In this document: in pieces, positions 2,937-34,294 of the stretch | Position numbering within the stretch: position 1 is the first letter of the stretch | Layout of the letters: every line of letters starts with the position of its first letter | IMG/VR virus record: IMGVR_UViG_3300010885_022071 | Coordinates: 1-41,509 of that record | DNA: 41,509 nt | Reading direction: 5' to 3' (one strand) | Source of the DNA: a virus | Translations under genes and position numbers: made by a program | The notes under the pieces: generated by a model | Seen by the model: the letters and a program-made list of their open reading frames with translations, nothing else | The model's database searches: none | Told to the model about the DNA's origin: nothing

Positions 2937-2973
2937 ATAAATAAGCAAGTTTGATACTCTCAATAACCAACTG

Positions 2974-3006
2974 AATAGCCAGCCTACGGGCTGGCTATTT
3001 TTGTTT
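2974..3006 (+). terminator. Rho-independent terminator after the 2772 gene
   Basis: An 11-bp perfect stem AATAGCCAGCC / GGCTGGCTATT with a TACG tetraloop runs into TTTTTGTTT. The T run again forms the start of structured repeat copy C. Confidence 0.85.
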
Positions 3007-3608: not shown

Positions 3609-3700
3609 TTTTCTGAAATGGGGTCTAAAAATTATCATTATGTCGCTGTTTCTGATACGCTCTGGGAATAGGCAAAATCATTGAAAGGAAGTTGCCCCTT

Positions 3701-5116
3701 ATGTCAATCGCTCTCTATGTAGAAAGCACATCCGAAATCACAGGTGACAATGGCGAGACTGGTCTTGACCAGACTCTTATTGTTCCTAACTACACCATTG
3801 GTACAATTCAGTTGTTCCACCGCACATCAACTGGTAAGCGTGGTCGTTCCGAGGCTTGGACACTAACAGACTTGGAACATCTACCATTCACGCCAGTTGT
3901 TAAGAATACTGTTGCTATCCGTCTCACCGATAATGACCACTATGCAATCGCTGGTGGCAAGGTAACTACTTTGGGATACAAGGCAACTAACGCTTCTGAC
4001 CAGACTGATAACAGGTCTGATACTGTCTCTCATGGTGTTCTTGTTGAGGCTCTGCTTCACCGCTTCGAGTCTGCTGACCAGACTCTTTCCGAGTACCTAA
4101 CTGACGGTCGCTACAAGGATACTCATGTTGAGTTTCCACCTCTTGTACCTAATCGTGCTTACTCTGGCTCACCAGTAACAAGCCCAGTATCCTCTGTGCA
4201 AGTCGTGGAACGTACTCATGCTGTTACTGCTTCTGCTCAAATGGAATTGGCTTCTGTGCCTGACATCAAGTGGGCAAAGTCGTACATCAACCGCAAGGTC
4301 GTAGGTGATGTTACTGATTTTGATATCTTTGATGTTGCTATGCGTAATAATGAAAACGTGCTTATTACTGGTCATGCTGGTTCTGGTAAGACTTCATCCG
4401 TAATGGCTTACGCTTCTGCTCGCGGATACCGTTACTACAACTTCTCATGCTCTGCTGGTACTGATACCAAGAAACTCTTTGGCGGATACAACCCAAGCGA
4501 GAATGGTCACTTCCATTGGCAAGACGGTGCAATAACAGACTTGGTACGCAACGGTGGTGTTCTGCTTATTGGTGAAATTACATTCATGCCTGAACGTACT
4601 GCTTCCGAGTTGTACTCCCTGCTTGATTACAGGCGCGAAATCCAACTAACCGATAAAGACGGTGAAGTAGTCAAGGCTCATCCTGACCTGCTCATTGTTG
4701 CTGACGGTAACATTGGCTATCGTGGTACGCGCGAGTTGTCTCAAGCGTTTAACGACAGGTTCACTCACCACCTTGATTTTCCTTATGACCCAGAGATTGA
4801 GGGTAAACTAATCAAGAATGAGGCAATATTGGAAATGGCTAACGCATTACGCGACCGTTTCGAGGATGAGGAAATCCAAACGCCAATTTCGACTCGCTCA
4901 CTTGTCGCTCTCATGGGCAACATTAACAGTCTGGGTATTGAGTATGGTATCTACGCTTACCTCAACCTATTCCCAATGCGCGAACAACCTGCTGTTAAGT
5001 TAGTTATTGAAACTTACCGCTACAACATTGAGGAAGCACTAGGCTTGGTAACAACTCCTATTGCCGAACCAGTCAATGAAGTTGTTAATGATACTGTTAA
5101 GATTGAGGTTATCTAA
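3701..5116 (+). CDS. MoxR/CobS-like AAA+ ATPase
   Basis: Predicted 471-residue ATPase; ATG 3701 follows GAAAGGAAG, while a TTG nine bases upstream overlaps that site. The first 180 or so residues are unrecognised. The AAA+ domain begins near residue 190: Walker A GHAGSGKT near residue 224, Walker B LLIGEI near 289 (with GE in place of the usual DE), then a TELSRAFxDRF-like arm (RELSQAFNDRFTHHLDF). This is the MoxR/CbbQ/CobS pattern of ATP-driven chaperones or chelatase subunits, which work with VWA partners. The next gene, three bases away, encodes such a partner, so the two are very probably one complex. Confidence 0.88.
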   Translation: MSIALYVESTSEITGDNGETGLDQTLIVPNYTIGTIQLFHRTSTGKRGRSEAWTLTDLEHLPFTPVVKNTVAIRLTDNDHYAIAGGKVTTLGYKATNASDQTDNRSDTVSHGVLVEALLHRFESADQTLSEYLTDGRYKDTHVEFPPLVPNRAYSGSPVTSPVSSVQVVERTHAVTASAQMELASVPDIKWAKSYINRKVVGDVTDFDIFDVAMRNNENVLITGHAGSGKTSSVMAYASARGYRYYNFSCSAGTDTKKLFGGYNPSENGHFHWQDGAITDLVRNGGVLLIGEITFMPERTASELYSLLDYRREIQLTDKDGEVVKAHPDLLIVADGNIGYRGTRELSQAFNDRFTHHLDFPYDPEIEGKLIKNEAILEMANALRDRFEDEEIQTPISTRSLVALMGNINSLGIEYGIYAYLNLFPMREQPAVKLVIETYRYNIEEALGLVTTPIAEPVNEVVNDTVKIEVI

Positions 5117-5119
5117 GTC

Positions 5120-6961
5120 ATGGGTATCAAACCAAAGGAAGTCCAACGTGACTTGCGACAACCATTCTGGAACAGGGATGATTTACATACATTCTCACCA
5201 GAGGAACGCGAACTCATACTTGCCGACACTATGGCGCATGAGGCTAAGAAACTTGCTCGCTTTCAAGCAATCGCTGGTGTGTACCAGACTGCGGATAGTG
5301 TGCTTACCAAGTCTAGTATCTCGGTAACTGCTGGTGACTTTAGCCAAATGGATTTAGGTGACTCACCTGCTTTCAATGACGGTAAGACTATTTATCTTAA
5401 TAGCAACATCCTCAAGGAAGTTGATGATAGTAGTTTGATTAGTCTCAATGGTGTGAACTACCATGAGGTTGCTCATATTCTCTGGTCACCGCGAGGTAAC
5501 TCCGAGTTTGGTCGCAACGTGGCTAGTAATGGGTACTTCCGAGCCTTTAACATTCTTGAGGATATGCGTATCGAGACTTTGCTAGTGGCTCGCTTCCCAA
5601 GCACTACCCAGTCTCTTATCAAGTCCACTCTTGATTACATTATGGAAAAGCCCGAGGGTTCGTATCCACTAATACGAGGTCGCAAGTACCTGCCACTTGA
5701 GATACGCCAGTTGTCTGCTGACCTATTCATTACTCAAAAGGGTGTTGTCTTTGTTAATAAGATGAATAACATCATTGACGAATACAGACTGCTTACTTAC
5801 CCAAGCGATTATGCGCGAGGCTTGCACCTTATCAAAGAGTTTCACGACCTACTTGATTTAGAGTCTGGTAAGCAGACTGGTGGTCAATGTGGGGATAGAC
5901 AACTACTCAAGTCGGGCAGACCAGAGGGTAATGAAAAGCAAAACAAAATTGCTAGTCGTGCTAAGGCTATGTCCAACACGAACGAGGAAATCAAGGACAA
6001 GTCTGGTGAGGATAACCAGTCTGGTGCTGGCTCACAGAAGCCTAACAATCCTGTTGAGTATGACCCTGCCAATCAGCGCAAGGAACAGTCTGATGAACTT
6101 GTCAATGCTGTACGCGAGGCTATTGACAAGTTGATGAAGTCTAAGCAACTCAAGGTTGAGGCTCGTCAGTTACGCTCTGCTATTCGTGAGTCTGACCGCG
6201 CTAGTCGCAAGGATGTCAAGAATGATTACACGCAACAAGAACCTGACGGTGCTTACCGAGTCGCAAGCAAGGCTTTCGGTGAGGAACTTAGCAGACTGCG
6301 TATTGACAATGACCCTCATTGGCAGATTGAAAAGCCAGTAGGCAGACTCAATATCAACCGCGTTATGAACATGAATGTCAATGACATTACAACAGTCTTT
6401 GACCAATGGAATGAGGGCAGGGATGATTACAATATCGAGGCAGTTATTATGTGCGATACATCTGGGTCTATGGGTAGCATTATCAACGAAACTATGCAAT
6501 CCATGTGGGCAATCAAACGTGCGCTAGAACAGATTGAGGCTAAGGTAACAGTCTTATCTTTTAGCGACCAAATCAAAACTATCTATTCTAGTAATGATTT
6601 AGCCACGAATAGGTATCGGCTTGCCTATGACGGTGGTGGAACTTCACCGCTTGAGGGTTTGCTGGATGTCGAGTCTATCCTTGAGTCCTCAAGGCGTAAA
6701 ACTAAACTATTATTCATTATCACAGACGGTGAATGGTCTAATAATACAGACTGCGACCGAACTATTGCCCGTATCAACGAGATTGACGGGGTAGTATCCC
6801 AAGTTGTTTATATTAGTAGTTACGCTTCGGTTGATGTAAATGACCCTGATGTGCGCGTAAAAATACTAAGTCAATACCGCCATAACGCTCACGCGATTGA
6901 GTTAGTATCCAAGCCTAGAGAACTTGTGAACGTGGCTCGTAGTATTCTACGGAGTCTGTAA
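5120..6961 (+). CDS. VWA-domain protein with HExxH motif, CobT-like partner of the ATPase
   Basis: Predicted 613 residues. Near residue 115 is YHEVAHILW, an HExxH zinc-metallopeptidase signature. The middle (about 270-340) is charged and low in complexity. The C-terminal third is a VWA domain with a complete MIDAS metal site: DTSGSMG at about 446-452, the GGGTSPLEGL threonine, and IITDGEW. VWA proteins of this type pair with MoxR/CobS ATPases; CobT of aerobic cobaltochelatase has the same VWA end, and VWA/HExxH proteins also occur alone in phages. Whether the HExxH is catalytic is not known. The stop overlaps a TAATG and a large structured region follows. Confidence 0.85.
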   Translation: MGIKPKEVQRDLRQPFWNRDDLHTFSPEERELILADTMAHEAKKLARFQAIAGVYQTADSVLTKSSISVTAGDFSQMDLGDSPAFNDGKTIYLNSNILKEVDDSSLISLNGVNYHEVAHILWSPRGNSEFGRNVASNGYFRAFNILEDMRIETLLVARFPSTTQSLIKSTLDYIMEKPEGSYPLIRGRKYLPLEIRQLSADLFITQKGVVFVNKMNNIIDEYRLLTYPSDYARGLHLIKEFHDLLDLESGKQTGGQCGDRQLLKSGRPEGNEKQNKIASRAKAMSNTNEEIKDKSGEDNQSGAGSQKPNNPVEYDPANQRKEQSDELVNAVREAIDKLMKSKQLKVEARQLRSAIRESDRASRKDVKNDYTQQEPDGAYRVASKAFGEELSRLRIDNDPHWQIEKPVGRLNINRVMNMNVNDITTVFDQWNEGRDDYNIEAVIMCDTSGSMGSIINETMQSMWAIKRALEQIEAKVTVLSFSDQIKTIYSSNDLATNRYRLAYDGGGTSPLEGLLDVESILESSRRKTKLLFIITDGEWSNNTDCDRTIARINEIDGVVSQVVYISSYASVDVNDPDVRVKILSQYRHNAHAIELVSKPRELVNVARSILRSL

Positions 6962-6966
6962 TGACC

Positions 6967-7578
6967 TGTGGTATGAGCGTACTTGACGAGGATAGCATTG
7001 TGGGGTCTTACTTCCTTTCATCTCTGCAATCGCTGTGCGCTCATACCACACCTAACAAACTTGGTACGCTCAACGAACGGAGTAGTGAACATAGTCTTAC
7101 GAGACATGAAGTAGCGAAATCGTTTCCTCTGGGCGTACCAACTAGATTTAGCCACAAACGTCATGGGGCAATATTGCCTGTGTCTGGCATACAAGGGTCA
7201 TGGTATATGTTCCGCCTTGTGTGTCTATGGGGTACTCCCCCCAAATTGGGAGTCGCGTTGGATGAAGCGAGCATAGAAGGAGTCCCTACTTGCGAACTTG
7301 ACCTCTTGTGGCTAAAAACCTTTAGCAATATTAACAATAATGTTGCTATTCAATTTAATATCTATGACGGCTTACTGTCCAAACCATGTAGCACTACAAA
7401 ATTGTAGTCAAGATTGGTAGTGAAGTAATGCTCTCCGTAGATATTAACCCTGTTAGTGAGAGGCAACGGCTAGTATGCAATACCGCGAAAGACCTAACGT
7501 ACTGCAAGTCTCGCAAGAGCGCGTTGTACGTTGTTCCGAGTAGCCGTTCCACAGAACACCCTCTGCCTCTCACTAACA
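6967..7578 (+). ncRNA. Candidate large ornate RNA, about 610 nt, multi-domain
   Basis: Four domains in series are closed by helices: 13 bp (6967-6979/7038-7050), 9 bp plus two extending pairs, one a U.G wobble (7061-7071/7131-7141), 11 bp perfect (TTTAGCCACAA 7147-7157 / TTGTGGCTAAA 7306-7316) and 15 bp perfect (7451-7465/7564-7578). Inside are GTCT(TACG)AGAC, GGCAATATTGCC, ACAAGG/CCTTGT, ACTCCC/GGGAGT, AACGGCTA/TAGCCGTT, AACGTAC/GTACGTT and CTC(GCAA)GAG with a GNRA loop. Hairpins at 7323-7348 and 7393-7408 link domains III and IV. The size, phage setting and architecture recall the GOLLD and ROOL ornate phage RNAs, but I cannot match either by sequence. A 148-codon frame (6961-7407) overlaps it and is judged less likely. 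Confidence 0.6.
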
Positions 7579-7606
7579 TTATTAACTAGATTAACTAGGA
7601 GTAACC

Positions 7607-7849
7607 ATGAATAACGTCTCAACACAAACTTACGCGCCAGATACTCTTTGCTCGGATTGTGACATTCGAGTCTGGGATGTCTGGGGATGTATTAACAATG
7701 ATGAACATAATAAACTGTGTTTGATGTGCTGTGGATGTCCTGAACATAAGGACTACTGGGGTACTAAATGCTGTGGCGAGGACTACTACAACAAAGAATG
7801 TGACTGTTGCATGAATGTATGCGAAGTCTGTTATGAAAGCGAGGACTAA
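7607..7849 (+). CDS. Cysteine-rich zinc-binding small protein
   Basis: Predicted 80 residues with 15 cysteines in several CxxC/CC groups (CSDC, CLMCCGC, KCC, CDCC, CEVC), which suggests two or more zinc knuckles. TAGGAGT upstream is a good ribosome site. It opens a run of small overlapping genes after the structured RNA. No family is recognised; protein-protein or nucleic-acid binding is likely from the motif type alone. Confidence 0.75.
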   Translation: MNNVSTQTYAPDTLCSDCDIRVWDVWGCINNDEHNKLCLMCCGCPEHKDYWGTKCCGEDYYNKECDCCMNVCEVCYESED

Positions 7850-32460: not shown

Positions 32461-32524
32461 AGGTGCTCCTCAACGAGGCTTACCCATAGGGCAATCGCCC
32501 AGGTTTGCGTGTTGAGGAGCACCT
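32461..32524 (-). terminator. Large bidirectional terminator-like hairpin
   Basis: AGGTGCTCCTCAAC (32461-32474) pairs perfectly with GTTGAGGAGCACCT (32511-32524). The 36-base interior holds GGGC-AATC-GCCC. T runs flank it on both strands (TTTTAA rightward, TAACTTTTT leftward). It separates the lysis-type genes from the RHH gene. Confidence 0.7.
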
Positions 32525-33996: not shown

Positions 33997-34061
33997 TGCC
34001 AGTTCTCTCCTAAGGGCAATACATAAAGTTTACCCGAAGAAAGAATAATAATCTTGGCTTG

Positions 34062-34133
34062 CTCCCCGCCGTGGACTCGAACCACGAACATTTCGATTAA
34101 CAGTCGAACGCTCTGCCATTGAGCTAGCAGGGA
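34062..34133 (-). tRNA. tRNA-Asn (anticodon GUU)
   Basis: Acceptor TCCCTGC / GCGGGGA, D arm GCTC...GAGC, anticodon stem TTCGA/TCGAA with loop CTGTTAA, T arm CGTGG-TTCGAGT-CCACG. Seventy-two bases, no encoded CCA. It is the last of the three tRNAs in transcription order. Confidence 0.93.
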
Positions 34134-34137
34134 TTAG

Positions 34138-34216
34138 TGCTAGACCTTGGAATCGAACCAAGCATGCTTGCGCGACGGATTTACAGTCCGCTGCCCCACC
34201 TTAGGGCATGTCTAGC
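34138..34216 (-). tRNA. tRNA-Tyr (anticodon GUA)
   Basis: Acceptor GCTAGAC / GTCTAGC, anticodon loop CTGTAAA, a longer variable region as in class II tRNAs, T arm CTTGG-TTCGATT-CCAAG. Seventy-nine bases, no encoded CCA, four bases from tRNA-Asn. Confidence 0.93.
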
Positions 34217-34222
34217 CTTACG

Positions 34223-34294
34223 AGCCCCCTATCCGATTTGAACGGATGACATTCGCTTTACAAGAGCGACGCTCTACCACTGAGCTAAGGAGGC
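34223..34294 (-). tRNA. tRNA-Thr (anticodon UGU)
   Basis: Acceptor GCCTCCT / AGGGGGC, anticodon stem TCGCT/AGCGA with loop CTTGTAA, T arm ATCCG-TTCAAAT-CGGAT. Seventy-two bases. It begins only seven bases after the NlpC/P60 stop codon, so the tRNAs must be cut out of that transcript. Confidence 0.93.

Follow-up and report, generated by a model that had tools for sequence, protein, structure and literature searches.

The 41.5-kb phage genome fragment analysed here (an IMG/VR record, hereafter the window) encodes, at positions 6961-7606 of the plus strand, a folded RNA of a new, uncatalogued family found in four phage contigs. That this is a real structured plus-strand RNA is almost certain, and very likely it works as an RNA, not as a gene for a protein. 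The overall view that we favour, and consider probable, is of a new plus-strand structured RNA that lies within an operon, is probably crossed by ribosomes and acts as RNA, with a function that we infer from its conserved elements. The features to which the text refers are as follows.

3692-5116: MoxR-type AAA ATPase gene, upstream of the VWA gene
5120-6961 (+): VWA (CoxE/CobT-like) protein gene, 613 aa, immediately 5' of the structured RNA; the anchor for finding relatives
6961-7606 (+): whole structured RNA region, from VWA stop to next start codon (folding)
6967-7050 (+): domain I, 13-bp closing helix 6967-6979/7038-7050, 16 bp in the MFE
7007-7020 (+): domain I apical loop CUUACUUCCUUUCA, 14 nt, invariant, on a covarying 4-bp stem; anti-Shine-Dalgarno-like
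7061-7141 (+): domain II, 12-bp helix 7061-7072/7130-7141 with one U.G; AC/CUC loop 7073-7074/7127-7129
7147-7316 (+): domain III, multibranched, 11-bp closing helix 7147-7157/7306-7316 and AC/CUC; compensatory change
7323-7348 (+): domain IV, plain 11-bp hairpin (folding); missing in relatives
7355-7447 (+): domain V, 12-bp helix and AC/CUC; none seen in relatives
7451-7578 (+): domain VI, 15-bp helix 7451-7465/7564-7578 and AC/CUC
6961-7407 (+): stop-free frame, 148 codons, ATG coupled to the VWA stop with GGAG upstream; unconserved as protein
7405-7588 (+): -1 frame, open (0 stops vs 5 and 8 in the other frames), TAG at 7586-7588

Fold, relatives and covariation

The RNA is roughly 620 bases long and is organised as six successive domains between 6967 and 7578. 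The region folded at -224 kcal/mol where its shuffles averaged -178 (z -5.8), and when 6961-7606 was taken by itself the z-score against shuffles was -7.7. A preliminary description of this DNA had proposed a large structured RNA of four domains. All four of the closing helices that it named were located (13 bp, 12 bp with one U.G, 11 bp and 15 bp), as were its TACG and GCAA tetraloops (in GTCT-TACG-AGAC and CTC-GCAA-GAG respectively), but the layout was incomplete in that the hairpin at 7323-7348 and the domain at 7355-7447 had been overlooked. Its argument that such helices are hard to obtain by chance is borne out by the z-scores and by covariation in relatives, which excludes chance, and the proposal of a large multi-domain RNA is upheld by the maintenance of the helices through compensatory changes in three relatives.

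These relatives came from a profile search of IMG/VR with the VWA protein, which recovered 80 phage loci. Three of them (L006, L018 and L083; VWA proteins approximately 65% identical) share both the RNA and its location. In the relatives the region from VWA stop to next start codon is 737-740 nt long and folds in the same multi-domain manner (z -6.4 and -3.9). The number of arms varies among the phages: domains I, III and VI are common to all, the type-II arm occurs three times in the relatives and once in the window, and the window has IV and V in addition. The family therefore consists of four phage contigs, two of which are near-identical, and covariation rests on three distinct sequences. 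A homologue search of 50,697 phage records with the window DNA, the 148-aa frame and the 245-aa frame of the relatives returned nothing, as did a single-sequence search of IMG/VR with the VWA protein; it was the alignment-based search that recovered the relatives. A second VWA search recovered these three again as close relatives, all other VWA proteins that it returned having 43% identity or less. DNA patterns made from the conserved RNA blocks led back to the same three contigs; elsewhere they matched sequence in which the helices, or the fold of domain III, were missing. A model of domain III searched against 50 VWA phages found strong matches in the three relatives only; a fourth, weak match (E 0.002) was rejected, as long open frames are present there and most of the closing helix is missing.

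In domain III, 15 of the 52 pairs show two-sided compensatory change among the three distinct sequences, and 97.4% of cells are paired. None of 500 shuffles did as well, and slid-strand controls gave 0-2 two-sided pairs; RNAalifold was consistent with this covariation. G.U pairs number 15 and A.C pairs one, which indicates an RNA of the plus strand. The domain also contains invariant loops around CAAAUUGG and GAAGCGAGCAU. In domain I the closing helix has three two-sided changes among 12 aligned pairs, and every pair of the apical 4-bp stem differs among the window, L006 and L018 with pairing always kept. The 14-nt loop on this stem, CUUACUUCCUUUCA, is identical in all four phages. Conserved loops on covarying stems are a hallmark of functional RNA.

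The AC/CUC arm and other structured elements

All domains except I and IV share a common build, in which a base helix of 10-15 bp leads to an internal loop, with 5' AC opposite 5' CUC, and then to an inner helix whose first pair is usually G-C. Four such arms are present in the window and five in the relatives. The AC/CUC loop is invariant in all 13 distinct copies, and across these copies the base helices, despite widely differing sequences, have standard pairs, of many types, in 130 of 130 cells. In arm IIa of L018 the inner pair is U-A in place of G-C, a compensated change, and the AC/CUC loop is unchanged. Among the loci scanned, chains of AC/CUC arms were confined to the four contigs, and eight control trinucleotide pairs produced no arm chains in the same loci. 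Pairing between GAG and CUC within the arms was considered and dropped, several arms having no GAG. Arms IIa-IIc have common linkers and the appearance of duplications. The RNA is thus of modular design, with arms gained or lost and each bearing the same AC/CUC loop.

A C-loop with a CUC bulge has been described in T-box stem I, and C-loops can tune helical phase (PMC4919913). The AC/CUC loop, which is internal and asymmetric, is flanked by a helix on either side and has CUC as one of its strands, appears to fit this description. The likeness to C-loops of the RNA 3D Motif Atlas (PMC3854523) and of T-box stem I (PMC4919913) extends to the position of CUC on the long strand, although here the motif is repeated four or five times per RNA, at the same place in each arm. 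Since C-loops change helical twist, it is plausible that a C-loop-like AC/CUC, together with the base helix below it, would set the direction of each arm.

The same AC/CUC loop was also seen outside the array. In the window a 14-bp perfect hairpin at 32461-32524 (minus strand) carries it, with a T-rich tail, 3' of a small ORF, and is terminator-like. A 13-bp helix capped by AC/CUC lies several kb from the array in two genomes of the relatives, L134 (14112-14236, minus) and L139 (7466-7589, plus).

The VWA loci were screened for structure on the plus strand. Further elements were noted in the window and in other VWA phages. A dispersed intergenic element occurs in the window at 268-606 and in two genomes of the relatives, G001 (L134; 13199-14044, 15960-16292 and 18102-18532) and G002 (L139; 5342-5688, 6608-7038 and 7674-8534). 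Its parts are ordered as a terminator, TTTGTTTGTGTTGGC ... GGCTTTAAAGCC hairpins ... GACACAAACA and a GTGTGA..TCACA palindrome, and its fold z-scores reach about -10. In the window two terminator-like hairpins, at 1596-1633 and 2973-3000, precede copies of TTGTTTGTGT, the sequence with which this element begins. L044 (700-1120), L045 (1600-2100) and L055 (560-1100) have hairpins between genes, of the type TTGTTGTGTTGGAAGCC...GGCTTCCAACACAACAA, whose perfect stems measure approximately 25-30 bp and which look akin to the dispersed element. Other VWA phages have intergenic regions with very strong structure and no Rfam match, namely L043 (557-1040 and 1438-1660), L059 (2740-3395), L060 (400-900) and L062 (260-760), and those of L043 and L059 include an AC/CUC-capped long helix. 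These findings suggest that many structured RNAs still to be described are to be had from phages carrying VWA and MoxR genes.

Operon setting and the stop-free frame

The fragment carries phage genes for ribonucleotide reductase, DNA polymerase, a UvsX-like recombinase and a helicase/primase. Among named phages, those of Gordonia and Brevibacterium have the VWA proteins nearest to this one (25-29% identity), and an actinobacterial host is therefore likely, judging from these sequences. The VWA stop overlaps the ATG at 6961 (TAATG). Directly 3' of the RNA, at 7607-7849, lies a gene for a small cysteine-rich protein with no Pfam or PHROG match. Simple scans of the structured region detected no promoter-like excess and no terminator, and for this reason the RNA probably belongs to the transcript of the operon. 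On the reading that we favour, it would be transcribed within the operon and be either free or processed; its invariant unpaired loops, chiefly that of domain I, would make functional contacts; and ribosomes leaving the VWA gene would cross the region, where translation may compete with folding.

It is possible, rather than probable, that the region is instead a cis-acting intercistronic element of the operon mRNA, which would tune stability, processing or coupled translation of the VWA and small genes and would never exist as a free RNA. All four phages have it exactly in the interval from the VWA stop codon to the next start, which is in agreement with this, as are the linking of both genes through TAATG overlaps by the open frame of the relatives, the lack of a promoter or terminator of its own in the scans, and the abundance of structured intergenic elements in the relatives and other VWA phages. 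However, the size of the RNA and its invariant loops go beyond the needs of a simple processing site or spacer, and arm number varies with no evident effect on the neighbouring genes.

The open frame at 6961-7407 noted in the preliminary description does exist, with 148 codons open where nine stops would be expected. In the relatives the corresponding frame is open for 245 codons, where 13 stops would be expected, and terminates at a TAATG in which the next gene starts. Stops by frame number 0/15/23 in L006 and 0/5/17 in the window; the open frames of the relatives share ancestry and are not three independent events. In the window the open stretch would carry on into the -1 frame if the frame slipped, or the assembly had an indel, near CTACAAAATTGTAG; inspection by eye of the sequence near 7395-7407 found no canonical -1 slippery heptamer. 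Since the frame is stop-free, ribosomes should be able to cross the region. A purely untranslated RNA does not explain open stretches of this length, which counts against it.

Could the region then be a real protein gene (148 aa, or approximately 214 aa across the frameshift; 245 aa in the relatives) whose mRNA is incidentally structured? The coupled ATG with GGAG and the absence of stops speak for this, the latter having a probability of (2/3)^38 = 2e-7 if stops are independent, but it is unlikely on several grounds. Between L006 and L018 the frame has 18/18/28 changes at codon positions 1/2/3, with 34 nonsynonymous and 15 synonymous codons, against 30 and 56 in the VWA genes. Domain III, the region of greatest DNA likeness between the window and L006, is read in different phase by the two (shifts of 0/1/2/0, from indels), and in each it is open only in the frame entering from its own ATG. 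Compared with the relatives, the 148-codon frame shows neither conserved amino acids nor visible purifying selection; the best BLASTP E-value was 0.86. The 245-aa product of the relatives has no Pfam or PHROG family match, codon usage of the open frame is not gene-like, and AlphaFold2 gave the 245-aa product a pLDDT of 28, weak evidence given the shallow three-row alignment. The frame thus has a start signal and no stops but neither amino-acid conservation nor third-position bias. The preliminary description had named conservation of the 148-codon frame by synonymous changes, without the helices, as one outcome that would speak against an RNA; the opposite is seen, helices being kept and amino acids not.

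Read most simply, these observations mean that ribosomes which have translated the VWA gene go on across the RNA, that stops are harmful and that the peptide itself is unselected. This would be an unusual conflict between RNA structure and open reading frame. We tentatively propose that the RNA must both fold and be crossed by ribosomes, selection having removed stops from the frame that enters from the gene upstream, in whatever phase, with no protein conserved. If so, translation would act on the RNA by unfolding it, by protecting it from termination or by gating the anti-Shine-Dalgarno-like loop, with the peptide as a by-product. Candidate reasons for the avoidance of stops are coupled expression of the next gene, prevention of transcription termination and gating of the fold.

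The domain I loop and comparison with known RNAs

The domain I loop is pyrimidine-rich and is the most conserved exposed element of the RNA. The usual anti-Shine-Dalgarno tail of 16S rRNA is ACCUCCUUUCU, from which the loop differs at two of 11 positions. The duplex predicted between 7007-7020 and a full consensus Shine-Dalgarno sequence has an energy of -16.9 kcal/mol; for the start regions within the window itself the values lie between 2.0 and -10.2, which carries no weight as proof. Our best guess at function is that this loop pairs with ribosome binding sites, be they in the same operon or on other mRNAs, on the pattern of multi-hairpin regulatory RNAs such as RNAIII, although an anti-Shine-Dalgarno mechanism, proposed from complementarity, must be regarded as rather doubtful. 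Alternatively, the Shine-Dalgarno-like AGGAG in the P7 loop of domain III could be the partner, which would give an internal tertiary contact. The RNA thus offers an exposed invariant loop whose proposed target is immediately testable.

Rfam 15 gave no credible match in the window even at E 10, its hits there and in the relatives being tRNAs or sub-threshold chance matches; membership of ROOL, GOLLD, OLE or any other described family is therefore unsupported. This agrees with the lack of a sequence match in the preliminary description, whose comparison with ROOL and GOLLD finds no support as kinship: besides the Rfam result, the tRNA genes (34061-34294, minus strand) lie approximately 26 kb away on the other strand. 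To our knowledge very few phage RNAs of this size have real covariation support, and the known ones (ROOL and GOLLD) have no assigned function. A homo-oligomeric cage or scaffold like those of the ornate RNAs ROOL, GOLLD or OLE is improbable, a variable number of arms fitting a closed symmetric shell poorly and both an Rfam match and a tRNA neighbourhood being absent, in spite of the similar size, the phage setting, the many arms with conserved loops and the capacity of C-loops to tune helical phase (PMC4919913). Inverted repeats acting at the level of DNA (palindromic mobile elements or DNA hairpins), which the duplication-like arms IIa-IIc and their common linkers might recall, are very improbable given the 15 G.U pairs against one A.C in domain III, the complex multibranch covariation and the conserved loops.

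ROOL and GOLLD resemble the present RNA in being phage-borne, 600-800 nt long and elaborately folded into multiple domains, with no known protein partner (PMC12286853). They differ in that the RNA described here has no covariance-model match, lies in an operon behind a VWA gene, and is a modular array with a variable number of arms that runs through a stop-free frame; they are also often near tRNA islands, whereas this RNA has none nearby. A functional parallel may be RNAIII of Staphylococcus aureus, which attaches to ribosome binding sites through C-rich hairpin loops and contains a reading frame as well (PMC2837412). Both RNAs have many hairpins, an internal reading frame and an exposed pyrimidine-rich loop that pairs, here by prediction, with Shine-Dalgarno sequences. 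There is no sequence kinship between them, however, and the RNA of the window is set in a phage operon, its domain I loop is rich in U and C rather than being UCCC, and the product of its frame is unconserved.
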